Made by a program: the position numbers and the translations under genes. A DNA stretch of 64,000 nucleotides, taken from Phycisphaerae bacterium. Its GTDB lineage: Bacteria; Planctomycetota; Phycisphaerae; UBA1845. The stretch covers positions 1-64,000 of the forward strand of contig JABWBH010000020.1 of NCBI GenBank assembly GCA_013360585.1, read 5' to 3'. Below are positions 16,836 through 59,300 of the stretch, in pieces (positions within the stretch are counted from its first letter, which is position 1; every line of letters starts with the position of its first letter). Below the pieces are notes generated by a model that made no database searches, was not told where the DNA came from, and saw nothing but the letters and a program-made list of their open reading frames with translations.

Positions 16836-19800
16836 TCAGACCCCGGCGGGAGACCCGGTGGCCTCCTGCGCCTCGCGCAACAATTCACTGATCTGCTCGG
16901 CGCGGCTTCGCGGTTTGCGCGGCTTCTCGGAAACCGTCGCGGCGACGGGCGTGTCCATGTCGCTGTCGGCCGGTTGCGGCGGACGCGGGAAGCGGCTCGC
17001 GGGGACCGAGACGATCCGCCCCGCTTCCGGCGCGGCCAGCCGCTGCAACGTCTGCGTCGGGTGGGTCGATCCGATGCCCGGTGTTTTCGCCAGCGTCGCG
17101 GCGAGGCGCGACTGCGCGCGGATCGCCTCCTCAACCCACTCCTTCAAAGTTCGCGCGGCTTCGTCCGTATCATGCGCGAGCCGCTCCAGCCGCGTGTCCG
17201 CCTCGCGGCTGGTTTTGCGGAACTCCTCGATCCGCTGGTTGGCTTCGAGACTGACCTTCGACAATCCCGCGAAGACCTTCTGCACGGCTTTGCACACTTT
17301 GTCGAGCTGCTCCGCCTGCTGCCGCGCGTCCTTGACCAGCGTCTGCGGTTCGATGCACAGGTCAGCGACCTGGCGCTCAATCTGGCCGGTCCGGGCATGT
17401 AAATCCTTCAGCGACTCGGCCAGCTTCTGCGCCTGCGCGACGAACTCGCGGAGGATGCGCTCCCCCGACTCGGCGGAGCGCTCGCGGTCCTCGATCGCGG
17501 CGAGCAGATCTTCGGCGCGAGTCACGACGAGACGTCCGCACTCCGTCGCCTCGCGGAGGCGCTGAGCGGTCTGCTCGGCGTCGTGCGATCCCTGCGCCAC
17601 CTGCGTCATGCGCTCCTGCGCCTGCCGCGTGGCGGCGTCGAGCCGGTCGGCCGCGGACTGCGCGTGCTCAAGCACCTGGCGATGCTCGCCGAGCGCGATG
17701 CGGGCTTCGGCCTGCTCGTTGCGGACGCGCTCCGCGTTGGCGGCGAGATCCTGAACCGCCGCCTCGGCGCTGCGCTGCACGGAAGTTCCCTGCTCGATCA
17801 GCGCGGTCAGCGCGTCACGTACCGCCGTCCCCGATTGCAGCGCCTGCGTGATGTTCGAGAGGCGCTCGGTCAGGGTTCTGGCCCCTGCGCCGGCGGCTCG
17901 GAGCGATTCGAGCGTCTGTTTCGCATTCGTGTCCGACTCCGCAAGCGCGTCGCGGTGCTGCGCGGCGTCCGCCTGTTGCGCCGACAGCGCCTCGATCAGA
18001 GCGTCCAGCTCCCTGCGGCGATCGTTGAGCGCCTCACGCTGGGCGTCCGACGCCTCGGTCAGGGTGCGCAGGTCTGCGATCAACGTCTGAAGATGGGCTC
18101 TCGTCGTCTCGGATTCGGCACGCGCCGACTGCCAGGCGGTGACGTCCTCCCGGCTGACGCGGTGCAGGTCCGCAAGCTCGCTGATGATCTGGCGGGCGGC
18201 GGCGACATGAGAGGCCAGCGCCTGCTCGCGTCGTTCCGCCGTGGCGGTCTCCGTCCGGATGCGCATCCCAAGGTCTTCGGATTTCGCCGTCAGAGACTCG
18301 ATCGTCGCTTCAGCGGCGCCCAGCCTGGAAATGCCGGACTCCGCCCGCTCACAGGCGGCGCCGAGCAGGAACAGGCGGTCGGTCGTCTGCTGATCCGCCG
18401 CAGCCAGTTTCTGTGCCGTCTCCGCCAGCCGCGCATGCAGCGCCTCGCCGGACACCGACGCCGTTTCAAGCGCCTCGTTCGCCCGCTCGGCACGCGCGGA
18501 CGCCTGCTCGATCGTCCGGGTCTTGAACTGGGCGGTCTCAAGGGACTGCTGAACCTTCGCCACGGCGGTATCGGCGGACTGAAGGTTCTCCCGGGCGGTT
18601 CGGTTCGACTCGGCCAGGGTCTCCTGCAAACGGTCGCCCGCGGCGAGGATCTCCTTGATCTGCCGCCGCTCGCGCTCGGCCTGGCTGAAGAGCGCCTGCA
18701 GCGTCGTGCGACACTTGCTCACCTGTCGCTCGGACGCTTTCTCGATCTGCTCCCAGCGACGCGCCTGCCGCTCGATCGCCGACAGGGACTCTTCCGCGCG
18801 GGTGATGCGCTCCGGAAGCTCCCGCTGGAGCGGAGCGCTGCGCTGCAACAGGGCTTCCAGCGCCGCCGCCAGATCCTGCCCGTCCTTCATTGTGCGTTGA
18901 AGCTCGGTCACGGTCGCCTGCGTCTGCGATCGATTCTGATCGAGACGCTGCGCCTGATCTGCCGCCTGCTTCGCCAGCAGTTCTTCACGCGTCTCGACCT
19001 GCTGAAGCAACGCCTGAAGGCGCATGACCAGCTCCCGCCCGGACTCGACCGCGGCGGACGTCTCCGTCGCCCGCTGCCGCGTCGCGCGCTCGCTCTCCGT
19101 CAGGTTCTCCTGAAGCTGCGTCAACCGACGTTCCGTCTCGCGTGTCTCCCGGGTGATCGCGTCGGCGCGTTCGATCTGCGTCGTCAGATGTTTCGAAAGC
19201 GACTGCGCGTTTTCGGTGCGCGCCATCATCAGGCGCGCCGTGCTCTGGTACGCCGTCGCCGCTTTCGTCGCCTGCGCCTCGGCTTCTTCGATCGTGCGCA
19301 TCACGCGATCCCCGGCCTCCCCGAGGCGCTGGAGGAGTCGTTCCGCCCGGCTAAGGTGCTCGAGCAACCGGGCTTCAACGGCTGGCGCATAACCTTGCGC
19401 CGCTCGGGGAAGCGTCGGGTCCGGTCCCAGCGACTCTTCAAGTCGCGCCAGCAGCGCCTCTCCGTTGGCGATCAATGCATCCACGGATGGACTCCCTTCT
19501 TGATGACCGGTTGATGCCCGCTCTCGCGGGATCGCGGGACGAATGCGGGTTGAATGTTCAACGCGCCCGGCGCCGGGGACTGACGACTCGGTTCCGGGGG
19601 TTGCAGGGTCGAGTCGAGGATCATTCCGGAAGTCTTCGACCTCCGCGGAAAGGTTCGCGCCGATCCCCGTGTCCAGCGCCGCCGACCGCTCAACCTCATC
19701 CCGAGGCCTCGTCGATTCCGCCAGCAACACCGTCTTCGAGCCCGCGCCGGATTCGTGGGCCGGGCTCGCCGGATCCTCCGGCGCAGGAGCCGACAGCGCC

Positions 19801-20618
19801 CGGGCGACGGCGTCGATCACCGCCGCCGTGACCGCGCCGCTTTCCTGCTTGTCCGCCGCCGCCAGCCCGGCTGCGCAAAGCCGGTTGATCCTTCGGGGAA
19901 GCCCGCGCGAGATTTCGTACACGCGATCGATGGCCGCAACGTCAAAGCGTTCGAATGTTCCCGCAGCGCCCGTGATGCGAAGGCGGTGGGCGATGTACGC
20001 CTCTGTCTCCTCGCGCGACAGCGGCGCGAGCGTGACGACGCCGTTGATGCGGGCGCGGAGGGGGCGGCCGTCATCGCACAGCAGCGCCTGCGCCTCCGAC
20101 CGGCCGAAAAGCAGGAGGGAAACCCCCTGAACGCCGCCGCCGTCGCGCCGCGTCAGCGCGGCGAGGGTCTCGATCGTCGCTGCGGAGAGATGCTCCGCCT
20201 GATCAATGACGACCAGGAACGACCCGCGGTCCTTCGCACGCTGGCGCAGCGCCTGCCGGACGCGCAGCAAACCGCGCATCGACTTCACGTCCGACGACGA
20301 CGCCACGCCGATGCCGCGAAAGAGCGCCTCGTGAAACGCCGTGTCCTCGCCCGGTCTTGCCGTCAGCAGCGTGCAGCGCTCCGGCGCGGGGAAGCGAGCG
20401 ATCACCTGTCGCGCCGCCATCGTCTTGCCCGATCCCGCGACGCCGAACACGCAGAACACGCCGCCGGTGGGTGCGGACCAGGTCTGCACGTCCTGCAGCA
20501 CCTTCTCCGTCCCCGACGACGGATAATAAAGCTCCAACTGCGGCAGATCTTCAAAGGGCGCCAACTGCGGCGGCTGCACGGGTTGTTTCATGACGCTTGT
20601 CCCACCACGAACCGACAA
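16836..20618 (-). CDS. ExeA-like AAA ATPase fused to a giant coiled coil
   Basis: A 1260-residue protein. Residues 40-290 are an AAA_22/ExeA-type ATPase: Walker A GVAGSGKT (59-66), a Walker-B-like FLVVIDQAEHLS (Asp139 followed by Gln, not Glu), sensor SLLLFGRSE, and RGLPRRINRLC. A disordered Pro/Ser/Glu linker follows (290-400), then ~770 residues of Glu/Gln/Arg/Ala heptad sequence with no transmembrane helix, and a basic Pro-rich C-terminus. The TTG at 20618 was chosen because AAGGAG lies 7 bases before it; ATG 20591 is possible. ExeA/GspA and the PEP-CTERM-locus ATPase TIGR03015 share the ATPase type, so an envelope or secretion role is possible; an SMC-like cytoskeletal or DNA role is the alternative. 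Confidence 0.82.
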   Translation of the reverse strand: MSVRGGTSVMKQPVQPPQLAPFEDLPQLELYYPSSGTEKVLQDVQTWSAPTGGVFCVFGVAGSGKTMAARQVIARFPAPERCTLLTARPGEDTAFHEALFRGIGVASSSDVKSMRGLLRVRQALRQRAKDRGSFLVVIDQAEHLSAATIETLAALTRRDGGGVQGVSLLLFGRSEAQALLCDDGRPLRARINGVVTLAPLSREETEAYIAHRLRITGAAGTFERFDVAAIDRVYEISRGLPRRINRLCAAGLAAADKQESGAVTAAVIDAVARALSAPAPEDPASPAHESGAGSKTVLLAESTRPRDEVERSAALDTGIGANLSAEVEDFRNDPRLDPATPGTESSVPGAGRVEHSTRIRPAIPRERASTGHQEGSPSVDALIANGEALLARLEESLGPDPTLPRAAQGYAPAVEARLLEHLSRAERLLQRLGEAGDRVMRTIEEAEAQATKAATAYQSTARLMMARTENAQSLSKHLTTQIERADAITRETRETERRLTQLQENLTESERATRQRATETSAAVESGRELVMRLQALLQQVETREELLAKQAADQAQRLDQNRSQTQATVTELQRTMKDGQDLAAALEALLQRSAPLQRELPERITRAEESLSAIERQARRWEQIEKASERQVSKCRTTLQALFSQAERERRQIKEILAAGDRLQETLAESNRTARENLQSADTAVAKVQQSLETAQFKTRTIEQASARAERANEALETASVSGEALHARLAETAQKLAAADQQTTDRLFLLGAACERAESGISRLGAAEATIESLTAKSEDLGMRIRTETATAERREQALASHVAAARQIISELADLHRVSREDVTAWQSARAESETTRAHLQTLIADLRTLTEASDAQREALNDRRRELDALIEALSAQQADAAQHRDALAESDTNAKQTLESLRAAGAGARTLTERLSNITQALQSGTAVRDALTALIEQGTSVQRSAEAAVQDLAANAERVRNEQAEARIALGEHRQVLEHAQSAADRLDAATRQAQERMTQVAQGSHDAEQTAQRLREATECGRLVVTRAEDLLAAIEDRERSAESGERILREFVAQAQKLAESLKDLHARTGQIERQVADLCIEPQTLVKDARQQAEQLDKVCKAVQKVFAGLSKVSLEANQRIEEFRKTSREADTRLERLAHDTDEAARTLKEWVEEAIRAQSRLAATLAKTPGIGSTHPTQTLQRLAAPEAGRIVSVPASRFPRPPQPADSDMDTPVAATVSEKPRKPRSRAEQISELLREAQEATGSPAGV

Positions 20619-31909: not shown

Positions 31910-32857
31910 TCAGCGGGGGGCGCCCGGAGCGGGGACGGGCCGGTCATCCACGACGAGCTTCGAAAGCAGCCAGAGTTCGCCGACCAGCAGGACGACGGCA
32001 ACCGGCATCATCGCGTAGCCCGCGAAATCATGAAAGTACTTCTCGACCGCGCGGCTGCCGTCGGTGGCGAGGAGGAGCCACGCCGTGGCGACGACGCGGA
32101 CGACGTTGCAGGCGATCGCCACGGGAACGCTGGATATCACGAGGACGATCTTCTGCCACGCGGGACGGCGGATTGAGAGGGCGAGGAAGGCTGCAACGAT
32201 CAGAAACGTGGTCATCATGCGCAATCCGCTGCACGCCTCGACCACGCCGACCTGCACGCGGTCGTTGAGCGTGAGGATGTTGCCCTCGCGGCGGACGACG
32301 ATGCCCGCCAGGTCGAGCACGAAGTTGGCGGCGGTGGTGGCTTGCGCCTGAAGCGGGTTCGAGATCGCGTTGTGGATGCGTCCCGGGAGGGGAACCATCA
32401 AAAACAGAAACGCGAGGATCCAGAAGACGCGCCGGAACAGCGCGCCGCCGCCGATCCACCACACCAGGCCGATGACCTCAAGCACGAATGCGTAGCGCTC
32501 GACGGACTGCCGCAAGTCGAGCAGGCCTTTGTAGCGCGCGGCCTCGGCCGCGAGGACGATCAACGCCGCGGGCCAGAACGGACGGACCTCCTGCGTTCTC
32601 AGCAGCGATCGCTTTTCCCACAGCAGGTAGATCGCGACAAGGGGCACGAAGGCCCCCGCCGAGTAATCCTCGCTGGACTTCCAGTCCCGGGCGAGTTCCG
32701 TAAGCGTCGTCCAGTACGACGCCGTCAAAGCGCCGAGCAGCACGATCAGCGCGGTCAGCGCGGCTCGCGCGGTCTGCGGAGGGGCGGGGATTCCGGCCTC
32801 GCTGCCGATCTGCGTGGGACCGCCCTGCGTGACGGTCGGGTCCGGTGCGAGACTCAC
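31910..32857 (-). CDS. Exosortase
   Basis: A 315-residue membrane protein with about eight transmembrane helices. The catalytic triad positions are present: Cys209 in VVEACSGLRMM, Arg254 in ACNVVRVV and His276 in KYFHDFAGYAMM. Exosortases cleave and transfer proteins bearing C-terminal PEP-CTERM-type signals, and are usually encoded in exopolysaccharide clusters. The start overlaps the EpsI gene by 4 bases, so the two are translationally coupled. The C-terminus ends in a Pro-rich cytoplasmic tail. The exact exosortase subtype cannot be named from sequence alone. Confidence 0.92.
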   Translation of the reverse strand: MSLAPDPTVTQGGPTQIGSEAGIPAPPQTARAALTALIVLLGALTASYWTTLTELARDWKSSEDYSAGAFVPLVAIYLLWEKRSLLRTQEVRPFWPAALIVLAAEAARYKGLLDLRQSVERYAFVLEVIGLVWWIGGGALFRRVFWILAFLFLMVPLPGRIHNAISNPLQAQATTAANFVLDLAGIVVRREGNILTLNDRVQVGVVEACSGLRMMTTFLIVAAFLALSIRRPAWQKIVLVISSVPVAIACNVVRVVATAWLLLATDGSRAVEKYFHDFAGYAMMPVAVVLLVGELWLLSKLVVDDRPVPAPGAPR

Positions 32858-33600
32858 GGCGCGTCTCCGGGGTGGACGGACGGAAGCGAGGCTTCGTGGG
32901 GCATGAGGTCGAGGATCGGCCCGGCGGTCGCGATCGCGAGGCGCCGCACGGATTCGACGGATTGCTCCGCACCGCCCGGGCCTTCCGGAACGTCAGCGTC
33001 GATCAGAACCCGCGCCGCGTAGCGGGCGCCGCGGTCGCCCCTCAACGCGGTGCGGATCAGCCACGACACGTCGGGACCGCGCGCGCCGTCGGCGATGTAG
33101 TAATGAAGCACGGCTTTGAACACCGGTTTGAGGTCGCCCTGACGGAAGAAAAACATCTGGCAGGGAAGCTCCTGACCGTCCGGCAGGGGCAGCAGCGTGG
33201 AGTCGACGCGGACCTGGGTCCAGCCCTGTCCGACATAGCAGACTTCGGGGCGATGCGGCGTGAGGTCGCGGAGATTCAGCCCGTAACCGACAAAAAGCGA
33301 GGCGCGGGGTAGCCCATCAGAGGATGCGTAGATGCGACACACGTGATCCGACGTGTCGGTGGCGCGTGCCAGCAACTCGTCGAGGACGAACGCCGTTCCG
33401 GTCCAGCCGGGAAGTTCGAGAGGAAGGTTCTCAAGGGCTCCCTTCGGAAGGGGCGCGCTTTCGAGCAGGCGTCCGTACCTGGCGGAGGCGTGGCGGAAAT
33501 GCAGGCCTCCCGCCGCAACGACGATCAAGGCTGCCGCGACCGGCAGCCGCAACGACCGGGCGGTCTGAACCGCGGCAGGTTTCGCTTCCGCAAGAGTCAT
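32854..33600 (-). CDS. Exosortase-associated EpsI family protein (DUF3485)
   Basis: A 248-residue protein with one N-terminal transmembrane helix (about 19-36) and a periplasmic DUF3485 domain: LPLELPGWTG, DELLARATDTSDHVCRIYAS, LFVGYGLNLRDLTPHRPEVCYVGQGW and QMFFFRQGD. EpsI domains accompany exosortases, either as separate genes or fused. It lies directly upstream of the exosortase with a 4-base overlap. The divergent beta-helix lipoprotein gene shares its 5' intergenic region. Its biochemical role is unknown. Confidence 0.9.
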   Translation of the reverse strand: MTLAEAKPAAVQTARSLRLPVAAALIVVAAGGLHFRHASARYGRLLESAPLPKGALENLPLELPGWTGTAFVLDELLARATDTSDHVCRIYASSDGLPRASLFVGYGLNLRDLTPHRPEVCYVGQGWTQVRVDSTLLPLPDGQELPCQMFFFRQGDLKPVFKAVLHYYIADGARGPDVSWLIRTALRGDRGARYAARVLIDADVPEGPGGAEQSVESVRRLAIATAGPILDLMPHEASLPSVHPGDAP

Positions 33601-33723
33601 TGCGCTTTTCCGAGGGCTGTCGCATTATCGCGCCTCCGACACGGGAAGGCGAGTCCGCGGTAACGACATCGGCAGGATGGCGCCTAGGGCTTTTGCCGGT
33701 TCCGTCAAGATCAACGTCCTACT

Positions 33724-33742
33724 TTAACGTTTGTTAACGTTT
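33724..33742. repeat. TTAACGTTT direct repeat, one helical turn apart
   Basis: TTAACGTTT-G-TTAACGTTT places two copies 10 bases apart, each containing the palindrome AACGTT. It lies in the shared 218-base promoter region of epsI and the beta-helix lipoprotein, and may be a tandem regulator-binding site. Confidence 0.55.
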
Positions 33743-33818
33743 TCGGATGATTGCAAATCCTACATTCCTTCCGGTAGGGTGCGAAGCTCGGCAATTCTCG
33801 AAGGATGGGGAAAGAAGC

Positions 33819-36800
33819 ATGTACTCGGTCCGAAGGATTTTCGCGCTAGCGGTTCTGCCGCTGTTTTTTGTCGGTCTCCTGGGTCTTCTGCTCGGATGCG
33901 GCGCCAGCCCCTCCGATTTCGACCCGCCGGGCGATGTTCCGCAGCAGCCGGACTCTGATGATCCGCCTCGTGATGACGACGACGATCCGCCTCCGCCGGA
34001 TGACGACCCTGATCTGAACGATCCGCAGGAGGATGACTTGAACCAGCCTCCGCTGGCGAACGCGGGAACCGACCGCTACGTGTACGAGGGGGAGTCGGTT
34101 CCGCTTGACGGAACTCGCAGTCTCGACCCGGAGGGCGAGCCGCTGACGTACTCGTGGACTCAGGTGTCGGGGCCGAAAGGCACGTTGCGCAACGCGACAT
34201 CGGACCTCTGCACGTTTGACGCGCCGGAGGTTGATGCGGATTCGGTGGTGGTCATCCAGTTGGAAGTGTCCGACGGGTACGACACGGACACCGACACGGT
34301 CGCGGTAACGGTCCTGAACCTGACGGACGGACAGTCAAGCGGTCCGGTGGCGGATGCGGGACCGGATCAGGTCGTCGGGGCCGGAGACGTGGTCGTGCTG
34401 GATGCCAGCGCGAGTCGGGGCGACGGATACGGATCCCTCGGGTTTGAGTGGACGCAGATCGACGGGCTTGAGGTGACGCTGGATGATCCCTTCCGAGCGA
34501 CAACCACGTTCGTCGCGCCCACCGTAGCGCAAGAGGTGGAGCTGATCTTTGAGGTGCGTGTGACTCAGAACGGGAAGTCGGCGGTGGATCAGACGCACGT
34601 GACGGTGGTTCCCGACGGGTCCGGGGGCGGCGGAGGCGGAGGCGGAGGCGGCGGGAACGGGAGCGGAAACTCGCCGCCGACGGTGTCGGATCAGAACGCT
34701 TCGACCGAGCGCGGGGTCGGTCTGACCCTAACGCTGCGCGGGCGTGACGCGGACGGCGACGACCTGACGTTTGAGATCGTAAGCGCGCCGACCGGCGGCG
34801 TTCTCGGTGCGCTGGACAACTCCCGGCGGTCGACGGCGACGGTGGCGTATACCCCTGACGACGACTTCACAGGCACGGACTCCTTCACCTTTCGTGCCAA
34901 CGACGGGACGGACGACTCAAACACGGCGACGTTCTTCATCTCCGTGTCGGGCGGGCCGCTCGTGTCCGATCAGGATGAGTACACACTGGAAAGCACGGGC
35001 GTTCAGATCACACTGGAGGGCAGCGACCCGGAAGGTGACAACCTGACGTTCTTCATCGAGTCCGGTCCGCGCGACGGTCTGCTGGGCGCTCTCGACAACA
35101 GCGCCCCGTCGTCGGCGACGGTGACGTACACGCCGCGAGCGAACTTCAGCGGGACGGATTTGTTCACGTTTTATGCGTCGGACGGGTCGGAGGAATCCGT
35201 GTCGGCGACGGTTGAGGTGACCGTGTACCCGACGGTGGAGTTCACGATCAACCCGATCGAGGGGCAGCGTCCGCTGAACGTGACGGGTGCGGCGCGCACG
35301 CGGAACGGCGCCCCCTTGCCGGAAGGGACGTATACGTGGACATTCGACGGGGCGAAGGACTCGGGCTCAATGAACACGCACAAGCAGCGCACGCGCACGT
35401 TTTCGACGGCGGGCGTGCATACGATCGCGCTGTCGATCGCCCTGACGGGGATCGTGGGCGAAGTGGCCTGTCATGAGGCGCAGACGGGACGCGCGCAGGC
35501 CGAGGCGACGGTCCGTCCGACGGTGCAGGGTTACGTCCGCAACGGAAGCGGCCAGCCGGTCAGCGGTGTGACGGTCTCCGCCAACAACGGCGGATCGACG
35601 AGCGTGACGGACGGGAGCGGACAGTACATCGTGCATGTGCCGTATCAGTGGTCGGGCACGGTGACGCCGGAGCGCTCCGGGACCACGTTCAACCCCACGT
35701 CGCGAACCTTCGGAACCACGACGGCGGACCGCTCGAACGAGAACTTCACCGCAAGCGGCGACAACGTGGCTCCGGACGCGGATGCGGGGCCGGATCAATA
35801 CGTCCTGGACGCGGACGGAAACGGATCGGAGTCAGTGCGCCTCGACGGTCGCGGCAGCCGGGACTCGGACGGCACGATCGTCAGTTATGAGTGGTTCGAC
35901 AACGGGAACCGGATTGCAACCGGGCAGCGTCCGAACGTCACGCTGGCGGTCGGGCGGTACACGATCCGGCTGACGGTGACTGATGATCGCGGGGCGACGG
36001 ACTCGGACACGGTGAGCATCGAGGTTGCGGCGCCGGGCGCCGGGTCGCGGTACTTCGTAGACGGCGACGATGTCAACGCTTCGGACAGCAATCCGGGGAC
36101 GGAGGGAAGCCCCTTCAAGACGATCCAGCGGGCGGCCGATCTGGTGAACCCCGGCGACACGGTGGTCATCAAGGCGGCGACGTACCCGGTTCCGTCGGGG
36201 CGCAACTACGTGGTGTACCTGACGCGCAGCGGGATCAGCGGCGCACCGATCACCTTCGAGGCGTTCGGCGACGGCGAGGTCATTCTTGACGGAACCGGCG
36301 GAAGCGGGACGGTGTTCTACGTGGACGGCAACAGCCGATCGGTGGATCACCTGGTGATCCGCGGGCTGACGGTGACGAAGGGCAACCTGCACGGGTTGTA
36401 TCTGCGCAACTGCAATTACGTTCTGGTGGAGCGATGCCGGTTCACGTACAACCGCGGCCACGGCGTGGCGATCTTCAGCGGCGGGTACGCCTCCGGCGGG
36501 TCGTATCAGACGGTGCAGCGGTGCGAGATCGCGTACAACGTGCTCTCGGGCATCCGGGCGGGGAACAACCTGACGCACGCGATGCCGCATCACGTGACGA
36601 TCCAGTACAACCACATTCATCACAACGTGAACGAGGACACGCCGGGCAACACGGACGGGATCGGCTGCTCGGGCACGGGGAATGATTACTCGGTCGTGCG
36701 CGGCAACGTCATTCACGACAACAGCGACGACGGGATCGACATCGGTCAGGGCGCGAAGTTCCACCTGGTCGAGGGGAACGTGATTTACAATCACAATTAT

Positions 36801-37493
36801 CCGGGCGGCGACGGAAGCGGCCTGAAGATGGGCACGTACGAGTCGAACCTGACGCCGGGCGGCGGGCACACCGTCCGTTACAACGTGATCTTCGGGAACA
36901 AGAACCGGGCGTTCGACCTGGCGGGAAATTACCGCGAGACCAGTGCGAAGCCCGAGCCGATCGTGTTGTACAACAACACCACGTTCGATCATCCGAAAGA
37001 TCTGATTTACATGGAGGAGGGGGACCTCATCCTGCGCAACAACATCGCGTGGGACGTCGACAACGGGACGTACTGGAGCTGCCGCCTGCGCGGGCACGAG
37101 GGGAACAAGCCCGAGGCGGATTCGGATTACAACCTCTGGAAGGACCGGTACATCAAGGACTGGGACCAGCGTCTGCGCACCGATCTGGACGGACGCTCGA
37201 CGGACCGGAATCCGCAGTTCCGCGATTCGGGGAACCTGACGGTAGAGACGGACCTGGACAGTCCGGAGTTCGGGCGCGTGCAGGGGCTGGAGCTGCTTCA
37301 GGGATCGCCCGCGATCGACGCCGGGGTGGAGATGCACGCGGAGTTGCAGCGTCTGCTGGATGCGGCGCAGCGCGCGGGCAAGCAGACCTGGGTGGACGCG
37401 CTGACCGCGGCGCTTCAATATCTGCCGGGGCCGATGTCCTTTAACGGTAGCGCGCCGGACATCGGGGCGCTGGAGTCCAACGGAATCAACTAG
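33819..37493 (+). CDS. Large multidomain PKD/cadherin-like/beta-helix lipoprotein
   Basis: A 1224-residue protein. The lipobox is LLGLLLGCG (Cys about residue 27), followed by an Asp/Pro-rich linker. Two Ig/PKD-like domains (about 72-270), a Gly-rich hinge, two cadherin-like Big_9 units (SATVTYTP, FSGTDLFTFYASDG), a PKD unit, a carboxypeptidase-regulatory-like unit (VRNGSGQPVSGVTVSANNGG), another PKD and a right-handed parallel beta-helix (about 750-1170: YFVDGDDVNASD, SGIRAGNNLTHAMPHH, NTDGIGCSGTGNDYS) follow. The helix resembles polysaccharide lyases or epimerases; active-site residues cannot be confirmed. It is divergent from the exosortase pair and lacks a C-terminal sorting tail. Confidence 0.85.
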   Translation: MYSVRRIFALAVLPLFFVGLLGLLLGCGASPSDFDPPGDVPQQPDSDDPPRDDDDDPPPPDDDPDLNDPQEDDLNQPPLANAGTDRYVYEGESVPLDGTRSLDPEGEPLTYSWTQVSGPKGTLRNATSDLCTFDAPEVDADSVVVIQLEVSDGYDTDTDTVAVTVLNLTDGQSSGPVADAGPDQVVGAGDVVVLDASASRGDGYGSLGFEWTQIDGLEVTLDDPFRATTTFVAPTVAQEVELIFEVRVTQNGKSAVDQTHVTVVPDGSGGGGGGGGGGGNGSGNSPPTVSDQNASTERGVGLTLTLRGRDADGDDLTFEIVSAPTGGVLGALDNSRRSTATVAYTPDDDFTGTDSFTFRANDGTDDSNTATFFISVSGGPLVSDQDEYTLESTGVQITLEGSDPEGDNLTFFIESGPRDGLLGALDNSAPSSATVTYTPRANFSGTDLFTFYASDGSEESVSATVEVTVYPTVEFTINPIEGQRPLNVTGAARTRNGAPLPEGTYTWTFDGAKDSGSMNTHKQRTRTFSTAGVHTIALSIALTGIVGEVACHEAQTGRAQAEATVRPTVQGYVRNGSGQPVSGVTVSANNGGSTSVTDGSGQYIVHVPYQWSGTVTPERSGTTFNPTSRTFGTTTADRSNENFTASGDNVAPDADAGPDQYVLDADGNGSESVRLDGRGSRDSDGTIVSYEWFDNGNRIATGQRPNVTLAVGRYTIRLTVTDDRGATDSDTVSIEVAAPGAGSRYFVDGDDVNASDSNPGTEGSPFKTIQRAADLVNPGDTVVIKAATYPVPSGRNYVVYLTRSGISGAPITFEAFGDGEVILDGTGGSGTVFYVDGNSRSVDHLVIRGLTVTKGNLHGLYLRNCNYVLVERCRFTYNRGHGVAIFSGGYASGGSYQTVQRCEIAYNVLSGIRAGNNLTHAMPHHVTIQYNHIHHNVNEDTPGNTDGIGCSGTGNDYSVVRGNVIHDNSDDGIDIGQGAKFHLVEGNVIYNHNYPGGDGSGLKMGTYESNLTPGGGHTVRYNVIFGNKNRAFDLAGNYRETSAKPEPIVLYNNTTFDHPKDLIYMEEGDLILRNNIAWDVDNGTYWSCRLRGHEGNKPEADSDYNLWKDRYIKDWDQRLRTDLDGRSTDRNPQFRDSGNLTVETDLDSPEFGRVQGLELLQGSPAIDAGVEMHAELQRLLDAAQRAGKQTWVDALTAALQYLPGPMSFNGSAPDIGALESNGIN

Positions 37494-37524
37494 CGTCATG
37501 ATGGCGAAGCCTGCGGCGCAGGAC

Positions 37525-37548
37525 GGATCGCAGACCTCCGGTCCGCAT
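37525..37548. repeat. Dispersed palindromic repeat, copy A
   Basis: One of four near-identical intergenic copies around the core GACCTCCGGTCCGC, preceded by GGATCG. This copy has AGACCT in place of GGACCT. It lies between the beta-helix lipoprotein and the deacetylase gene. Confidence 0.65.
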
Positions 37549-37582
37549 CCCGGTTTTCCGTCGCAGGGCGGACATGACTTAT

Positions 37583-37605
37583 GTGCGGGCCGGAGGTCCG
37601 CGATC
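37583..37605. repeat. Dispersed palindromic repeat, copy B (inverted)
   Basis: Inverted copy (CCGGAGGTCCGCGATCC) 35 bases from copy A, so the pair could form a large hairpin. It overlaps the spurious first codons of the deacetylase frame and is the reason for choosing the downstream start. Confidence 0.65.
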
Positions 37606-37619
37606 CGGAGGCGGCGGGC

Positions 37620-38564
37620 GTGAAGGAGCAGGTCTGGTCGCTGGTCTCTGAATTGATCTGGCGAATGCGTCGCGGGCCGTGCCTGGCGGTGCTGACGCTG
37701 CACCGGGTCGGGGCGGACCTGACGATCCAGCCGGACGCGGTGGCGCGGATGTTCGCGTACCTGCGGCGTCATTTCCGGATGATGCTGCCGTCGCAGTGGA
37801 CGGGGGGGGTGTCCGAGCCCTCAGCGATGATCACGATCGACGACGGGCACGAGGATGCGCACGACGTCATTTACCCGCTGGCGCGGCGCGAGGGCGTTCC
37901 GCTGGTGATCTGCGTCCCGACGGATTATTTCCTGCGCGATCGGTGGTTGTGGTTCGACCGGCTGAACTGGGCGATCGCGCAATGCCGCGGGACGCCGCAA
38001 GTCCGCGTCGGAGGCGAGACGTTTTTCCCGGATCACCGCCCGAGCGTCGTCGCGTTCAAGATGCACGTGAAGTCGCTCTCCCGGTCCGAGCGGGATGCGA
38101 TCGTTGAGGATCTGATCCGCATCGTCGGACGAGAGCCGCCGGCGGTCATGCCGAAGGAATACCGCCCCGTCCCGCGGGAGGCGATGCGCGGCATGCTGGC
38201 GACGGGGACAGTCGAACTTTGCGCGCACAGCGTCACCCATCCGGTCATGACGCGCCTCGAAGACGCGGAGCTGCGCGAGGAGCTGGCGCGCGGTCGTGCG
38301 GAGCTGGAGGCGTTTTCCGGAAGGCCCGTCGTCGCGTTCTGCTACCCGCACGGGCAAGCCGGGACGTTCGACGATCGAACGCAGGCGGCGGTGGCGCAAG
38401 CCGGTTACCGGATCGCGTTCACGAGCGTGCCGGGCGTCAACCGTCCACGATCGTTCGATCCGCTGCGCCTGAGGCGCATTCACGTTCATCCGCGACTTAG
38501 CATGTTCACGCGCGAGCTGGCGGGGCTGGGCGGTTGGCGGCGGCGGCTGGCAGGGGCGGATTGA
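37620..38564 (+). CDS. Polysaccharide deacetylase (NodB domain)
   Basis: A ~314-residue protein from GTG 37620; the ATG at 37581 lies inside a dispersed repeat and is not preferred. NodB motifs are present: TIDDGHEDA (Asp-Asp pair), HSVTHP (metal-binding His pair) and CYPHG. It removes N- or O-acetyl groups from polysaccharide, likely an exported polymer. There is no obvious signal peptide; the N-terminus is short and hydrophobic. It is convergent with the sulfotransferase and acyltransferase genes and close to the exosortase pair, as in XrtA-type exopolysaccharide loci. Confidence 0.88.
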   Translation: MKEQVWSLVSELIWRMRRGPCLAVLTLHRVGADLTIQPDAVARMFAYLRRHFRMMLPSQWTGGVSEPSAMITIDDGHEDAHDVIYPLARREGVPLVICVPTDYFLRDRWLWFDRLNWAIAQCRGTPQVRVGGETFFPDHRPSVVAFKMHVKSLSRSERDAIVEDLIRIVGREPPAVMPKEYRPVPREAMRGMLATGTVELCAHSVTHPVMTRLEDAELREELARGRAELEAFSGRPVVAFCYPHGQAGTFDDRTQAAVAQAGYRIAFTSVPGVNRPRSFDPLRLRRIHVHPRLSMFTRELAGLGGWRRRLAGAD

Positions 38565-38647
38565 CGCGGGAAGTCCACGTCACATCGGGCGTGAGAAACT
38601 CGCCCCCATCAGCGCGCTTGCGCGGGTGGAAGCCCGCGGCTGGGCGG

Positions 38648-39493
38648 TCAGGGTTTGCCGGCGGCTTCGGCGCGGCGGCGGCGTTCGCCTTCGCGGCGAT
38701 GTTCGGGAAACGCCCACTCCAGCAGGCGCTGCGGCACGAGGCGTCTGACGAGCGGTTTGACCCAGCCGAGCGCGCCATCCTCGAAGGCGTCGCGCACGCG
38801 CGTCAGGACGCGGTCGCGGAACGTGTCATGATTGAGTTCGGCGCGGACGCGCAGATCTTTCGCGGAGAGAGGGAACCCGACGAACTGCGCCAGTTCCGCG
38901 GCGACGGCGTCGGGCTGCTGAACGCATCGCTCGTAATGCAGCTCGAAAGGTGTCACGCCGCACTCGGCGAGGGCGGCGCGAGCCGCGTCGAGGTGGTCGC
39001 GTGCGAGGCCGGCGATCGCGGCCGGCGACAATTCACCGAGAATCTTGCTGTGATTGCGGACGATGCTGTGATAGATGCCCTCACTGCGGCGGTGAACCAG
39101 GATGAACCGGGTCGTCGCGCGGTCGAGCAGCGGCAGCCAGAAGGGCAGCGTGAAGCAAAGACGCACGTCTTTCCAGACCCACGGCGAACGCTCGTTGTAG
39201 AACGCGAGGAAGCGGCGATGGCGCTCCTCCGGGACGATCGTCCGGATCCGCTCGCGCACCTCCGGCGTCACCGGCTCGTAGCGCCAGGTGTTGTGATGCG
39301 GAAAGCCGGCGCGGCGGAGGAGATCGACGTTCAGGTCGAGCAGGTCGCGGGCTTCGAAGTAACCGAGCGGGTTGGCGTCGCTGGCGGGGGCGGCCTGCTC
39401 GCCGACGAAGTACCCCTGTCCGGCGAAGATGCCGGCGGTCATGCTCGTTCCGGAGCGCGCCATGCCGGTGATGATGACGTTCGGTCGGTTCAT
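38648..39493 (-). CDS. Sulfotransferase
   Basis: A 281-residue protein. The PAPS-binding P-loop is GMARSGTSMTA near the N-terminus, and the 3'-phosphate-binding region is FILVHRRSEGIYHSIVRNHSK. It transfers sulfate from PAPS to an acceptor such as a sugar. The C-terminus is Arg/Glu-rich. The start overlaps the end of the acyltransferase gene by 4 bases. Sulfated surface glycans are frequent in Planctomycetota, which fits the setting. The acceptor is unknown. Confidence 0.9.
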   Translation of the reverse strand: MNRPNVIITGMARSGTSMTAGIFAGQGYFVGEQAAPASDANPLGYFEARDLLDLNVDLLRRAGFPHHNTWRYEPVTPEVRERIRTIVPEERHRRFLAFYNERSPWVWKDVRLCFTLPFWLPLLDRATTRFILVHRRSEGIYHSIVRNHSKILGELSPAAIAGLARDHLDAARAALAECGVTPFELHYERCVQQPDAVAAELAQFVGFPLSAKDLRVRAELNHDTFRDRVLTRVRDAFEDGALGWVKPLVRRLVPQRLLEWAFPEHRREGERRRRAEAAGKP

Positions 39494-40785
39494 GCTTCCC
39501 CCGTCTCCGTGGGTTCCGGGGGCGGCGGATCATGACGCACATCGTCCGGGTCGCGCAGGAATCGCCCCGTCGGCCAGACCGGACGCGTGAAAAGCAGGCG
39601 GTTCTTCAGTGTTGGTCTGCCGAGCAGGAGATCGCAACCGGCGCGCGGCTCCGCAAGCCAGCGGCGCTTGTGCTCCGTCAGGCCTCCGAGGAAGTCGTAG
39701 GTTCGGACGCCTTCCTCGATCAGGCGCTCGATCGACCACTGCCGCAGGGCGTTGCCGACGCCTCGGGGGGCGGAAGGGTCGAAGCCCTCCTGCATCTGGT
39801 GGTAGACGCCGTCGTACACGTATCCGAGCTGGACCGCGGCGACCTGTCCGGCGAGCCGCGCAGCGTACATCCGCAGCCAGCCCCTGTTCCGCGCCCGCGG
39901 AGCAAACTCACGGTAGAAGTCCGCCTCCTTCGGTTTCCGCACAAAGGAACCGCGCAGCCCCGCTGCCGACCAGCGCAGGTCGTTGAGGCGGAAGAGCGTC
40001 TCCAGCGCTTCCGGAAGCGGCGTGGTATCACAATACCTCTCAAACTGGACCCCAGCGGTGGTCAACTGCTTCATCCGCCGCCGCAGCATTGATCGCGCGT
40101 TGCTCGACAACCGGGCGAAGAACGCCTCGAACGTGTCCGGCAGGGGAACGCACGAAAACGTTCGCTCGCGGGATTGCACGCGCCAGCCGAGGTTGTCCGC
40201 GCCCTCTCGGATACGCTCCGCCGCGCCGGTCCACCCGGCAAGCTTCGTCAGCCACATCACATCCCAGCGATCGCCGCGCACCTCAAGGGCTTGCAGAAGT
40301 CCGGCTCCTGTGCCCTCGCATCCGCGCCGCACGATTACATCCGGGTATTCCGCGCCGCAGAACGTGTCTCCCAGAACGCGCAGACATCGGAAACGAACGA
40401 GATTGACCAGCCGCATCGACGCCACGTAGAAGGGCGCCAGCCCGACAAGGCGTCCGCAGGCGTCTCGCGCCGCGACCGCCAGCACGTGCGCTTCGGGCCG
40501 CACCGTGCGCATCCACGATCGAACCCAGTCCGGAGTCAGAAACAACGTGCGGGAGGGGGAGTCGGAAAGCAGGTCGTCCCACTCCGCCGCGATCGCTTCG
40601 AGGACTGCGGCGCTCTCGATCACGTCGCACGATGGCGCCGCGGCGCCACCGCGGGTCCGCACGTCGTTCGGCGGGATTGCCTGTGCATCCGGATTCAAAC
40701 GACCTGACACGGTTGTAGCCTGCGCATCCACGCCCGTGATATTACACCTTCCGACCTGAGGTCCGTCCAACATCGCCTGGCGCAT
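39490..40785 (-). CDS. GNAT-fold acyltransferase (CelD/BcsL/FemAB-like)
   Basis: A 431-residue protein. Residues 1-60 are low-complexity; from about 65 two GNAT-like domains run, with the FemAB/CelD pattern TLFLTPDWVRSWMRT, ARLSSNARSMLRRRMKQL, NDLRWSAAGLRG and HQMQEGFDPSAPRGVGNALRQWSIERLIEEGVRTYDFLGG. CelD-like proteins acylate polysaccharides; FemAB-related ones occur in PEP-CTERM exopolysaccharide loci. The start is uncertain (ATG 40773 is an alternative). It overlaps the sulfotransferase gene by 4 bases. I infer acylation of the polymer handled by the neighbouring genes. Confidence 0.85.
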   Translation of the reverse strand: MRQAMLDGPQVGRCNITGVDAQATTVSGRLNPDAQAIPPNDVRTRGGAAAPSCDVIESAAVLEAIAAEWDDLLSDSPSRTLFLTPDWVRSWMRTVRPEAHVLAVAARDACGRLVGLAPFYVASMRLVNLVRFRCLRVLGDTFCGAEYPDVIVRRGCEGTGAGLLQALEVRGDRWDVMWLTKLAGWTGAAERIREGADNLGWRVQSRERTFSCVPLPDTFEAFFARLSSNARSMLRRRMKQLTTAGVQFERYCDTTPLPEALETLFRLNDLRWSAAGLRGSFVRKPKEADFYREFAPRARNRGWLRMYAARLAGQVAAVQLGYVYDGVYHQMQEGFDPSAPRGVGNALRQWSIERLIEEGVRTYDFLGGLTEHKRRWLAEPRAGCDLLLGRPTLKNRLLFTRPVWPTGRFLRDPDDVRHDPPPPEPTETGEA

Positions 40786-41000: not shown

Positions 41001-42500
41001 ATGAAACTTGCAATGTGGCGCGTGGCGACGGCCGGTCTGATCGTCGGGGCGTTGGCGACGGGGTGCGGCTGGAACGCCTCCGATCTCTTCGCGGACGGCG
41101 GCGGGGGCGACTTTCTCGTCACCGGGCGGACGCTTTCTCACTTCGAGGCCGTCCAGGTGGACCCGCGCTCTGAGGACTCGGCCGGTCCCTTGTTCGTAAA
41201 ATCCGCGGACCTCGACGGCGACGGGCGACTCGACCTGGTGACGGCGTGGGCGCAGTCTCAGCCGGTTCAGATTCACCTTCAGCGCGTCGGCGACGACGGC
41301 GAAGTCGGATTTCAGACCACGACGCTTGCGGGCAACATCCCGGTCACGATGACGGCGGATCTCGCCGTCTCGGACCTGGACGGCGACGACCGCCCGGACG
41401 TCATTTTGATGGCGAAGAGCCGCAACCTCGACGACACGGCGCAGGCGACGCTCGACGGAGCGATCCTTGTTTTCTTCGGACCGGAGGACGCCGCCGCGCT
41501 GACCGACCCTCTGCAGTGGCAGGAGGTGTTGCTGACGACTACGGCGCTGACCGGCGCCGGATCGCTCGATCCGACCGACCCCGAGACCGGCGGTTACACC
41601 GCGATGGATGTGGGCGACGTGGACCTGGACGGCGATCTGGACATCGTCGCCGCGCTGAACAGCGAGGCCGAGGAGGACGAGGAAGAGGCGTCGGGGCGGG
41701 TCGAGCTTTTCTCGAATCCGGGCGTCGCGCGGGCGCGGCGCGGGGGGGAGTGGGCGCGGTTCCGGCATACCGGGACGGGGGAGTTGTCGCTGGAGGTCCG
41801 GCAGAGCACCGTGAAGGACGTGATGCTGCTGGACGCGGACCGTGACGGCGACCTTGACGTCGTGCTGACGCGGCCGGACGCGGCGAGCCTGAACGTCCGC
41901 TGGTTGAGCAATCCGGTCATCCGACTTGAGGGATTCCCGGCGGAGTGGGCGACGAACACGATCGGACAGGTGGCGACCTCGGCGGATGTGCTGGCGTCGG
42001 GCGATCTCGACGGCGACGGCATCGCGGACGTGATTGTGCGGTCGAACGCGGGACGGGTCATACAGTGGTTCCGCGGTCCGCGCACGCCGTCGATCTCGCG
42101 CAACGTTCCGTGGCAGGTGTACACGCTGGCTGAGTTCCGCGAGCGCACCCCGCAGGGCATGACCGTGGCGGACGTCGATCTGGACGGGCGTCCGGAGGTT
42201 GTCATCGCCGCGGAAGGGGGGATCGCGTACTTCGAGCCGGGGGACTCCGCGTTCGAGCAGTGGCGCGAGCGCCTCGTTGTGGATGACCTGGCGGGCGAGG
42301 GCAACCCCGACGCGCCGCCGACGACCGATCCGCTGGTGGAGCCTGGCGACGTCGCGGGCGCGACGCTGACGCGTTCGATCCACGCGGCCGACCTGGACGG
42401 CGACGGAGCGGTGGACTTCATCGCCACGCTCGACCGCAGCGGCCTGTCCGGACTGACCAACGACGCCCTGGTCTGGTTCCGCAGCACGCTGAACCCGTAA
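41001..42500 (+). CDS. FG-GAP/VCBS repeat lipoprotein
   Basis: A 499-residue protein from ATG 41001 (GGAGG upstream). Lipobox LATGCG. Six or more Ca-binding-type Asp-rich repeats follow (SADLDGDGRLDLVTAW, VSDLDGDDRPDVI, DVDLDGDLDIVAAL, DADRDGDLDVVLT, GDLDGDGIADVIV, DVDLDGRPEVVIA, ADLDGDGAVDFIA), expected to form a seven-bladed beta-propeller. Such proteins are extracellular or surface-bound and bind other proteins or carbohydrate. It is divergent from the acyltransferase gene. No enzymatic motif is visible. Confidence 0.85.
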   Translation: MKLAMWRVATAGLIVGALATGCGWNASDLFADGGGGDFLVTGRTLSHFEAVQVDPRSEDSAGPLFVKSADLDGDGRLDLVTAWAQSQPVQIHLQRVGDDGEVGFQTTTLAGNIPVTMTADLAVSDLDGDDRPDVILMAKSRNLDDTAQATLDGAILVFFGPEDAAALTDPLQWQEVLLTTTALTGAGSLDPTDPETGGYTAMDVGDVDLDGDLDIVAALNSEAEEDEEEASGRVELFSNPGVARARRGGEWARFRHTGTGELSLEVRQSTVKDVMLLDADRDGDLDVVLTRPDAASLNVRWLSNPVIRLEGFPAEWATNTIGQVATSADVLASGDLDGDGIADVIVRSNAGRVIQWFRGPRTPSISRNVPWQVYTLAEFRERTPQGMTVADVDLDGRPEVVIAAEGGIAYFEPGDSAFEQWRERLVVDDLAGEGNPDAPPTTDPLVEPGDVAGATLTRSIHAADLDGDGAVDFIATLDRSGLSGLTNDALVWFRSTLNP

Positions 42501-55666: not shown

Positions 55667-56365
55667 ATGACGACGACATCCCAACCTGCGGTCGTGCTGT
55701 TGTCCGGCGGGCTGGACTCCGCGGTGACGTGCGCGCTGGCCGCGGAGCAGGGGTTCCGCATCCACGCTCTGACCGTCGATTACGGCCAGCGCCACGACGT
55801 CGAGATCGCCGCAGCGCGGCGGGTGGCGACGGCGATGCGCGTCGCGCGCCACGTGACGCAGCGGATCGACCTTCGCGCCTTCGGAGGATCGGCGCTGACG
55901 GCGGACCTCCCGGTGCCGGCGCACCGGACGGGGGGGGCGAGTCCTGACCCGGACGTTCCGGTGACGTACGTACCCGCGAGAAATACGATCCTGCTCTCGT
56001 TTGCGCTGGCGTTTGCGGAAGTGACCGGAGCCTCCGACATTTTCATCGGCGTGAACGCGGTGGACTACTCCGGGTATCCCGACTGCCGTCCGGCCTTCAT
56101 CGAGCAGTTCGAGCGTCTTGCGCGGGTGGCGACGCGCGCGGGCATTGAAGGTCGCGCGCTTTGCATTCGGGCGCCCCTGATGCACCTGAACAAGGCGCAG
56201 ATCGTGCTGGAGGGAGTCCGGCTGGGGGTGGACCTGGGCATGACGCACAGTTGTTACGACCCGGACGCGCAGGGGCGCGCCTGCGGGCGGTGCGACAGTT
56301 GTCATTACCGGCGTGAGGGCTTCCTCCAGGCTGGCGTTGTGGATCCGACGGTCTACCGGTCGTAG
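55667..56365 (+). CDS. queC: 7-cyano-7-deazaguanine synthase
   Basis: A 232-residue ATP-PPase enzyme with SGGLDSAV at residues 13-20 and the C-terminal zinc site (Cys196, Cys206, Cys209, Cys212). It converts 7-carboxy-7-deazaguanine to preQ0 with ammonia and ATP in queuosine biosynthesis. The ATG at 55667 gives the family-typical N-terminus; a longer frame would add a polylysine run. No other que gene is adjacent. Confidence 0.95.
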   Translation: MTTTSQPAVVLLSGGLDSAVTCALAAEQGFRIHALTVDYGQRHDVEIAAARRVATAMRVARHVTQRIDLRAFGGSALTADLPVPAHRTGGASPDPDVPVTYVPARNTILLSFALAFAEVTGASDIFIGVNAVDYSGYPDCRPAFIEQFERLARVATRAGIEGRALCIRAPLMHLNKAQIVLEGVRLGVDLGMTHSCYDPDAQGRACGRCDSCHYRREGFLQAGVVDPTVYRS

Positions 56366-59300
56366 TCCGCGGCGGGGCGGCGAGGTTTGAGGCGGCGGAG
56401 GGCGGAGAATGCCGCGCTGAGTGAAGCAAGATTAAGGAGCTGGAAGGCGCCGCAGGGCGTCACGGGAGCGCGCGGCGGGGGCGGCACTTCGGGCTCGACG
56501 ACGCAAAGAAGCGTGTCTTCCGCGTGCCGCCCGGTGTCGTCGAACACGCGGAGCGTCACGCGGTAGGTTCCCGGGCGGGTGTAGACGTGTTCGACGACGG
56601 CGCCCGCGCGGTCGAAGTCGAATCCGTCGGCGGCGTCCACATCCCACGCGAGGATCGTGATGGACGGCACGTCGGCGCCGAACCCTTCCTCGATGTCGAC
56701 GCGGCTGGCGGAGCCGTCGAACCGGGCGGTCTCCCCCGCGAAAACCGTGATGTCCGGACCTGCATCGGCGATCAGCGTTGTGACCGGTTCGTCGTCATCC
56801 GGGGGCGGATCGTCGTCCGGCGGAGGATCGTCATCGGGCGGATCGGGGCCGGTGTCGTCGTCGGGCGGCAGGACGATGAAGGTCACGCGGATCGGCCCGC
56901 TTCCGGCAAGACCGTCATGAAGTTCGTAGACGAGGGCATCCGTTCCGGTGAATCCTTCATCGGGCGTGTACGTCAGGTTCGGAACGTCGCCGGTGAGCGA
57001 GCCGTGCGCCGGGATCGTGGTGATGTCGATCGTGACCACGTCACCCGTGTCGGGGTCATGCGCGTCGAGGATCACGTTTGCAGATTCCCCGGCTTTGAGG
57101 GTGATTTCCTGCGGGAGCCCGGCGGGCGGGTCGTTAACCGGGCGCACCTCGATCGAGATGTACGCAAGGTCACTGCTGGTGTCGTCGTTCGCGACAATGA
57201 ACGCGAAGATGTCGTCTCCGAAGAAGTCAGGGGCGGGGACGTAGGTGACCTCGGGCGGATCGCCGATGACGGTGCCGTGCGCCGGCGCCTCGACGACAAA
57301 GAAGCGCGGATGCTGTCCGGTGTTGCCGGTTGCGGTCAGCGTCAGGTCCAGCGGCACGTCCTCATCCGTAACGAGGCTCTGATCCAGCGCGACCGGACGG
57401 TTTTCGCCGCCGCCTCCCCCGCCTCCGCCTCCTCCCCCACCGCCGCCGGAGCTGTCGTTGTCGCTGACCTGCGCCACGACGTCCGGGACGGCGATGCCGT
57501 TGTAGTTGCCGTCGCTGCTGACGGCGGTGTGTGTGATCGTCGAGGTATGCGCGCCCTCGACCAGAGCGTCATCCACGGCGGTGACGGTGACGGTCTGCGC
57601 GACGTTCCAGTTTCCGGTGGTGAAGGTGAGAATGATCGCTCCGCCCGCCCCGGCGCCCACGTCGGACTGAACATCAGGCTCGACGATGATCGAGACGCTG
57701 GCGGTCGGCGGGCTGTTGAGGAGCAGGGTGTACGTGTCGGACGTGGGTCCGGTTTCATCGACGACGGTATTGCCGCCGGACTCGGCGACGGCCACGCCGG
57801 CGACGTCGGTGACGGTGGCGACGACGCTGGTGACGGCGATGCCGTTGTAGTTGGAGTCGGCGCTGGAAGCGGAGTGGGTGATCGTCGAGGTGTGCGTACC
57901 TTCGACGACGCCGTCGTTGACGGCGGTGACGGTGATCGTTTGCGCGACGTTCCAGTTGGCGGTCGTGAAGGTGCGGTTGATCGCGCCGCCCGCGCCGTTG
58001 CCGACGTTCGTCTGCACATCCGGGTCGATCGTGATGGTGACGTTGGCGGTCGGCTGGCTGGTCAGGACGAGCGTGTACGTGTCGGAGGTCGGACCGACCT
58101 CGCTGACCAAGGTGAAACCACCGGATTCGGCGACGGTGACGCCGGCGGCGTCGTTGTCGGTGATGTTGGCGACGACGTTGGGGACGGCTAGTCCGTTGTA
58201 GTTGCCGTCACTGCTCGCAACCGTGTGCGTGATCGTCGAGGTATGCGGGCCTTCGGCGACGCTGTCGTTGACGGCGGTGACGGTGACGGTCTGGGCGACG
58301 CTCCAGTTGCCGCTGGTGAACGTGCGCGTGACGGGGGCGCCGGCGCCCGAGCCGAGGTTCGTCTGCGTGTCCGGATCGACGGTGATCGTGACGTTGGCGG
58401 TGGGCTGGCTGGTGAGGACGAGCGTATACGTGTCGGAGGTGGGACCGGCTTCGCTGACGTCGGTCGATCCGCCCGATTGCGTGAGCGTGATCCCGGCGGT
58501 GTCGTTGTCGGTGACGCTGGCCACGACGCTGCCGATGCTGATGCCGTTGTAGAAGCCGTCGCCGCTGGAGGCGGCGTGGGTGATCGTCGAGTTGTGCGCG
58601 CCTTCCGCGATGCTGTCGTCCACGGCGGTGACGGTGACGGTCTGAGCGACGTTCCAGTTCCCGCTGGTGAAGGTCAGGTTGACCGGGTTGCCCGCGCCCG
58701 CGCCGACGGTCGTCTGCGTGTCCGGGTCGACGGTGATCGTGACGTTGGCGGTGGGCTGCGTATTCAGAACGACGGTGTACGTGTCGGACGTGGGACCGGT
58801 CTCGCTCACGCTGGTCGATCCGCCGGACTGCGTGACGGTGACACCGGCGGTGTCGTTGTCGGTGACGGCGGCGACGACGTTGTTGATGCTGATGCCGTTG
58901 TAGCCTCCGTCGCCGCTGGCGGCGGTGTGTGTGATCGTTGAATTGTGTGCACCCTCGGCGATGAGATCGTTGACCGCAGTGACGGTGACGGTCTGGGCGA
59001 CGTTCCAGTTTCCCGCGGTGAAGGTCAGTTGGATCGCCGCTCCGGCGCCGGCTCCGACGTCGGTCTGTGCGTCAGGATCGACCGTGATCACGACGTCCGC
59101 GGTGGGCAGACTGCAAAGCACGACGGTGTACGTATCCGAGGTCGGGCCGGTTTCGCTGACCGAGGTGGCGCCGCCGGACTCGGTGATCGTGACGCCGGGG
59201 GCGTCATTGTCAGCGACGTTGGCGACGACGTTGCTGATGCTGATGCCGTTGTAGCCTCCGTCGCCGCTGGCGGCGGCGTGCGTGATCGTCGAGGTGTGCG

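Follow-up and report, generated by a model that had tools for sequence, protein, structure and literature searches.

The stretch of DNA analysed here (64,000 nucleotides, hereafter the window) comes from contig C42 of a 4.24-Mb, 84-contig planctomycete MAG, whose nearest named relatives in one scan were Phycisphaerae bacterium Bin_14R and Planctomycetota bacterium BroJett003. Gene calls, made with a codon-bias script, confirm all six genes that an earlier sequence-only reading had placed between positions 31910 and 40785. The genes for an exosortase (xrt, 31910..32857, minus strand) and an EpsI-like exosortase partner (epsI, 32854..33600, minus strand; DUF3485/PF11984) overlap by exactly 4 bases (32854-32857), as that reading had it. 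A divergent intergenic region of 218 bp (33601..33818), delimited by the gap and the orientation of its flanking genes and presumed to hold both promoters, separates them from a PKD/Ig-like/right-handed beta-helix lipoprotein of 1224 aa (33819..37493, plus strand; PF22352, PF17963, PF18911 and PF13229). Neither inverted repeats nor a sigma-54-like site were found in this region, and such sites overall numbered 2 against 9 expected. The lipoprotein has a lipobox (LLGC) at residues 24-27, and an in-frame ATG upstream at 33747 would lengthen it to 1248 aa. The modification module follows, with a polysaccharide deacetylase (37581..38564, plus strand; PF01522, 57.8 bits), a sulfotransferase (38648..39493, minus strand; PF13469, 30.1 bits, barely above the cut-off of 27) and a GNAT/FemAB-like acyltransferase (39490..40785, minus strand; PF13480, 92.8 bits), the last two genes overlapping by 4 bases. 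Glycosyltransferase, polymerase and export genes are absent within the cluster, in line with the earlier remark that no glycosyltransferase lies inside it. Just past the end bound of that reading lies an FG-GAP repeat lipoprotein (41013..42500, plus strand; PF13517, 88 bits), whose family recurs near xrt in G017, G006, G098 and the same-genus genomes. Contig C67 of this genome carries a second exosortase gene, flanked by genes for a polysaccharide export protein (SLBB/EpsE type, 60 bits against TIGR03028) and a Wzc-like protein. Elsewhere in the window, a 1251-aa AAA/coiled-coil protein (16836-20591, minus strand) shows weak STAND-like and DUF948 matches and no PADLOC match, and defence models gave no match on three window proteins outside the locus.

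The window exosortase (Xrt) scores above the cut-offs of the exosortase family models PF09721 (206.7 against 25.7 bits) and TIGR02602 (136.7 against 105.55 bits) and passes that of no named subtype, its best score being to XrtD (TIGR04152, 179 against 400 bits); it also falls below the XrtA cut-off (TIGR03109, 147.9 against 208 bits). The EpsI-like protein exceeds the cut-off of PF11984 (46.2 against 26.1 bits) and stays under that of TIGR02914 (29.9 against 42.8 bits). An EpsI neighbour of xrt was found in 46 of 51 related genomes. Among 57 aligned exosortases, the window Xrt included, the predicted catalytic Cys, Arg and His columns are kept in 56, 56 and 55 sequences, respectively. A tree of these sequences places the C67-type exosortases outside class A, which is made up of three clades: A1 (37 sequences including the window Xrt, epsI-xrt order, support 0.92), A2 (9 sequences, xrt-epsI order, mostly amid EPS genes, support 0.92) and F (6 sequences, amid EPS genes, support 0.995). 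Gene order matches the tree exactly in the readable A1 and A2 loci. The window Xrt belongs to an unnamed, XrtD-leaning planctomycete clade. At least one exosortase of clade F is fused to a nucleotidyltransferase/hexapeptide-like part; in L072:8438-10423 the exosortase stands behind this part within an EPS locus, and several family members have similar long open frames (650-740 aa) inside EPS loci. No credible exosortase relative was found among solved structures (best E 0.42), and a search of the open-access literature turned up little on planctomycete exosortases.

Secreted proteins ending in a [VI]PxP[GA]A motif, a helix and RRR are encoded near xrt in six loci (L046, L047, L052, L054, L062 and L064). 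A tail profile was built from 13 such ends, two of them from the window genome, and the tail census was carried out by profile searches in 114 genomes of the order, counting a match to Xrt at E < 1e-40 as class A membership and a profile match at E <= 1e-4 as a tail. Tails were detected in 45 of the 54 genomes that have class A and in 10 of the 60 that lack it (p 5e-13, genomes treated as independent). The association remains when the seven genomes that supplied training tails are removed (38/47 against 10/60) and outside the family of the window (14/20 against 8/43, p 1e-4), and it is also seen within one family (31/34 against 2/17). In genus g3, class A and the tail are both present in G035 and both absent from G005. 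Classical PEP-CTERM counts show no difference between the two groups (medians 18 and 22, p 0.97) and are zero in the 3 genomes lacking any exosortase match. In 6 genomes a tail gene is found no more than 10 kb from xrt, against 0.64 expected.

The earlier reading had proposed scanning the proteome for C-terminal tails matching the exosortase. Three proteins with VPxPGA tails are encoded in the window genome, on contigs C18 (257 aa), C75 (230 aa) and C51 (265 aa), all off the window contig and not near xrt; together with the census, they establish that a co-occurring tail, VPxPGA-helix-RRR, exists. Classical PEPA-type proteins are also present. On C18, the VPVPGA tail gene is followed by a gene for a PEPA-tailed protein and then by one for a 1482-aa PrsT-like TPR protein (212.4 bits, below the cut-off of 312.2), an arrangement repeated in G003 (L167), and TPR proteins related to the latter lie near xrt in many relatives. 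The VPLPA-CTERM model TIGR03370 gives the C75 protein 15.0 bits against a cut-off of 25.35 and matches no other scanned tail protein at E <= 0.1; against PEP-CTERM models, VPxPGA tails score 16-21 bits (cut-off 20.7). A 1914-aa Big_9 protein of the window (56353-62097, minus strand) ends in PCGAFQLLNLASLSAAFSALRRLKPRR, which resembles a sorting tail of a different, Cys-containing kind.

The pairing of class A and the tail is not exclusive, since the tail occurs in 10 genomes in which class A was not detected (G058, G082, G074, G039, G047, G034, G070, G075, G081 and G020), some of them incomplete. One of the ten is G058 (100% complete), with 9 tail matches and a C67-type exosortase as its only exosortase match. 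Another exosortase may serve the tails in these genomes. Many VPxPGA tails were seen in G058, G082 and G074 (L164, L178-L180, L163 and L176), where a class-A exosortase was not found. Conversely, nine class-A genomes, several of them incomplete, have no tail at E <= 1e-4.

Two small protein families were noticed around the relatives' loci. One is an undescribed family of about 190 aa with a signal peptide, a variable spacer, a PxxPGS-hydrophobic-RS segment like a sorting tail and a conserved WYH...APRGPP end (loci including L046:4631-5029, L047:10628-11212, L052:8530-9141, L054:4098-4703 and L062:8302-8874). It has no Pfam or NCBIfam match, occurs in 16 of 60 genomes, is absent from the window genome, and in 25 of 27 places its gene is followed on the same strand by a VPxPGA-type tail gene. 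The other is a protein of about 165 aa, with CxxC-type motifs in pairs and a hydrophobic stretch at its C-terminus, whose gene often directly follows xrt (16 loci: L048:10412-10900, L056:9008-9505, L060:10376-10912, L063:10200-10748 and 12 others); a family search gave no confident match.

The sequence-only reading had considered the large beta-helix protein less usual for such a locus; we find instead that its kind is the most recurrent xrt neighbour after EpsI. The upstream gene could be read in 41 class-A loci, of which 32 show the epsI-xrt order. The first gene that diverges from epsI encodes a PKD/Ig/beta-helix protein in 21 of the 32, compared with 1 of 341 control genes, which come from loci retrieved for different purposes and do not form a random sample. 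Counting only loci of this order with a divergent neighbour, the share is 21 of 24, spread over 18 genera and five families, while the other flank is variable; the remaining three are other genes. Most of these proteins carry an N-terminal lipobox. Among solved structures, the window lipoprotein matches PKD domains and, weakly, beta-helix enzymes, and nothing else; an AlphaFold2 model of the beta-helix part, built from two sequences only, had a mean pLDDT of 33 and was unusable. We also considered the lipoprotein as an exosortase substrate and rejected this, as its C-terminus has no hydrophobic tail. A sorting tail is absent from all complete divergent PKD/beta-helix proteins inspected, the window one included, so that the protein appears as a partner and not a substrate. 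The most fitting view is that of a putative surface partner co-expressed with the exosortase.

The deacetylase shows DD and HSxxH motifs, and its nearest solved relatives are polysaccharide deacetylases. Deacetylases and FemAB-like proteins had been put forward as known companions of XrtA-type loci; this identification does not hold for the window proteins, neither of which is matched by the NCBIfam models TIGR03006 or TIGR03019 at E <= 1e-3. Of 60 genomes, six others (G001, G003, G048, G025, G055 and G035) contain a FemAB homologue at E <= 1e-60. Conserved synteny in related genomes, which had been suggested as a check, is found in G001 and G003 of the same genus, where the genes are 87-98% identical and the neighbourhood is kept, split over two contigs in G001. 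G002, also of this genus and with an Xrt about 70% identical, retains epsI-xrt alone at the locus, and a search of its genome at E <= 1e-10 yielded no FemAB homologue. Farther away, contig C7 of G035 (L171) carries a run of heparinase-like, FemAB, sulfotransferase (40% identity), methyltransferase and deacetylase (44%) genes, with xrt elsewhere on C174. Likewise, a deacetylase and FemAB lie amid EPS genes on C40 of G048 (L169), whose xrt is on C38, and G029 (L173), which is without class A, has a deacetylase-FemAB pair. G055 (L065) is the only genome outside the genus with FemAB near xrt; there, FemAB and a deacetylase-like gene lie within about 9 kb of it. The solitary epsI-xrt of G002 and the position of the modification genes elsewhere, mostly apart from any xrt, mark them as a separate module. 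The modification genes are a separate, movable set, and only epsI-xrt and the lipoprotein are kept as a unit across related planctomycetes.

We consider it somewhat probable that this locus consists of two adjacent conserved units, namely a stand-alone exosortase with its own tail and a lipoprotein partner, and a movable polysaccharide-modification set. In the first unit, Xrt and its EpsI-like partner would recognize secreted proteins by the VPxPGA-hydrophobic helix-RRR tail and cleave them at the inner membrane, as suggested by analogy with known exosortases. The cleaved proteins, likely the three small secreted proteins of C18, C75 and C51, would then be handed on to the cell surface or matrix, where they may help to hold extracellular polymer. 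The divergent lipoprotein would serve as a co-expressed, lipid-anchored surface or matrix-binding partner. The second unit (deacetylase; sulfotransferase-FemAB) would chemically modify surface polysaccharide and probably landed beside the first in the genus of the window.

The sequence-only reading had instead seen one exosortase-linked exopolysaccharide cluster, in which all six genes serve one polymer that undergoes deacetylation, acylation and sulfation and bears the sorted proteins. Its gene content is correct, the genes stay together in G001 and G003, the G055 locus resembles such an arrangement, and exosortases of clades A2 and F do lie amid EPS genes. However, G002 retains epsI-xrt alone, the trio or pair is apart from xrt in G035, G048 and G029, the deacetylase and FemAB-like protein match no XrtA-locus subfamily, and synthesis and export genes are absent, with export genes adjoining the second exosortase on C67 instead. 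The genes therefore stand as described, while their union in a single cluster is unlikely. It is a little less improbable, though still doubtful, that the lipoprotein happens to lie beside epsI as a bystander, belonging to a common type of surface protein and being kept by ordinary synteny. The domain make-up of these proteins differs among loci (some have choice-of-anchor Q-like or DPRDS ends), in three loci with the epsI-xrt order the divergent neighbour is a different gene, and G002 has no lipoprotein. Recurrence in 21 of 24 divergent positions across 18 genera and five families, next to a variable other flank, argues against this.

A further alternative concerns the tail, as both exosortases might process all PEP-CTERM-like proteins alike, with VPxPGA being a regional variant that follows phylogeny and not a cognate signal. 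The tails in genomes without class A are consistent with such shared processing, as are the scores of VPxPGA tails close to the PEP-CTERM cut-off and the adjoining VPVPGA and PEPA proteins on C18. But the association persists inside one family, the tail in genus g3 is limited to the class-A member, and PEP-CTERM counts show no association with class A, which together make shared processing rather unlikely.

Beyond the reading as two adjacent units, we offer only tentatively, as a conjecture with the odds against it, a broader picture in which these planctomycetes run two exosortase lines per cell with separate tails (PEP versus VPxPGA). In the VPxPGA line, a lipid-anchored PKD/beta-helix partner dedicated to it at the outer surface might replace a linked EPS locus, and several relatives might add the WYH...APRGPP protein, whose gene immediately precedes those of the substrates. 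For the questions of how exosortases act on their substrates and how two of them are kept separate in one genome, an exosortase clade and a tail motif form a testable pair, with G005 and G035 as a contrast within one genus. The analysis also brings out a conserved surface lipoprotein partner and, in relatives, a small uncharacterised companion protein, and it splits from the sorting system the polysaccharide-modifying genes that the cluster reading had merged with it.

Sorted proteins have been proposed to hold extracellular polysaccharide to the surface in two genetically tested cases, cyanoexosortase B of Nostoc punctiforme (PMC12188702) and a PEP-CTERM floc protein of Aquincola (PMC9850573); both belong to subtypes different from that of the window system. 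The XrtA loci, with their TIGR03006 deacetylase and TIGR03019 FemAB, resemble the window in having enzymes of these broad classes close to an exosortase, but the window enzymes fall outside these subfamilies at E <= 1e-3 and a sulfotransferase is added. XrtD/VPLPA-CTERM (TIGR04152 and TIGR03370) resembles the window system in that XrtD gives the window Xrt its best NCBIfam score and VPxPG resembles VPLPA. However, XrtD is a single protein with an EpsI-like C-terminal part where the window has two genes, and the scores are far lower than the cut-offs (179 of 400 bits for Xrt, 15 of 25.35 bits for the tail). With the PEP-CTERM/EpsH (exosortase) system described by Haft et al. 2006 (PMC1569441), the window system shares an exosortase with Cys/Arg/His, an EpsI-like partner and tripartite C-terminal tails on secreted proteins, and its genome also holds a PrsT-like TPR protein, scoring under the cut-off. 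In contrast to that system, and to the exosortases of clades A2 and F and of C67, the window epsI-xrt does not lie amid EPS synthesis genes but stands alone beside a lipoprotein, and VPxPGA takes the place of PEP in its tail.
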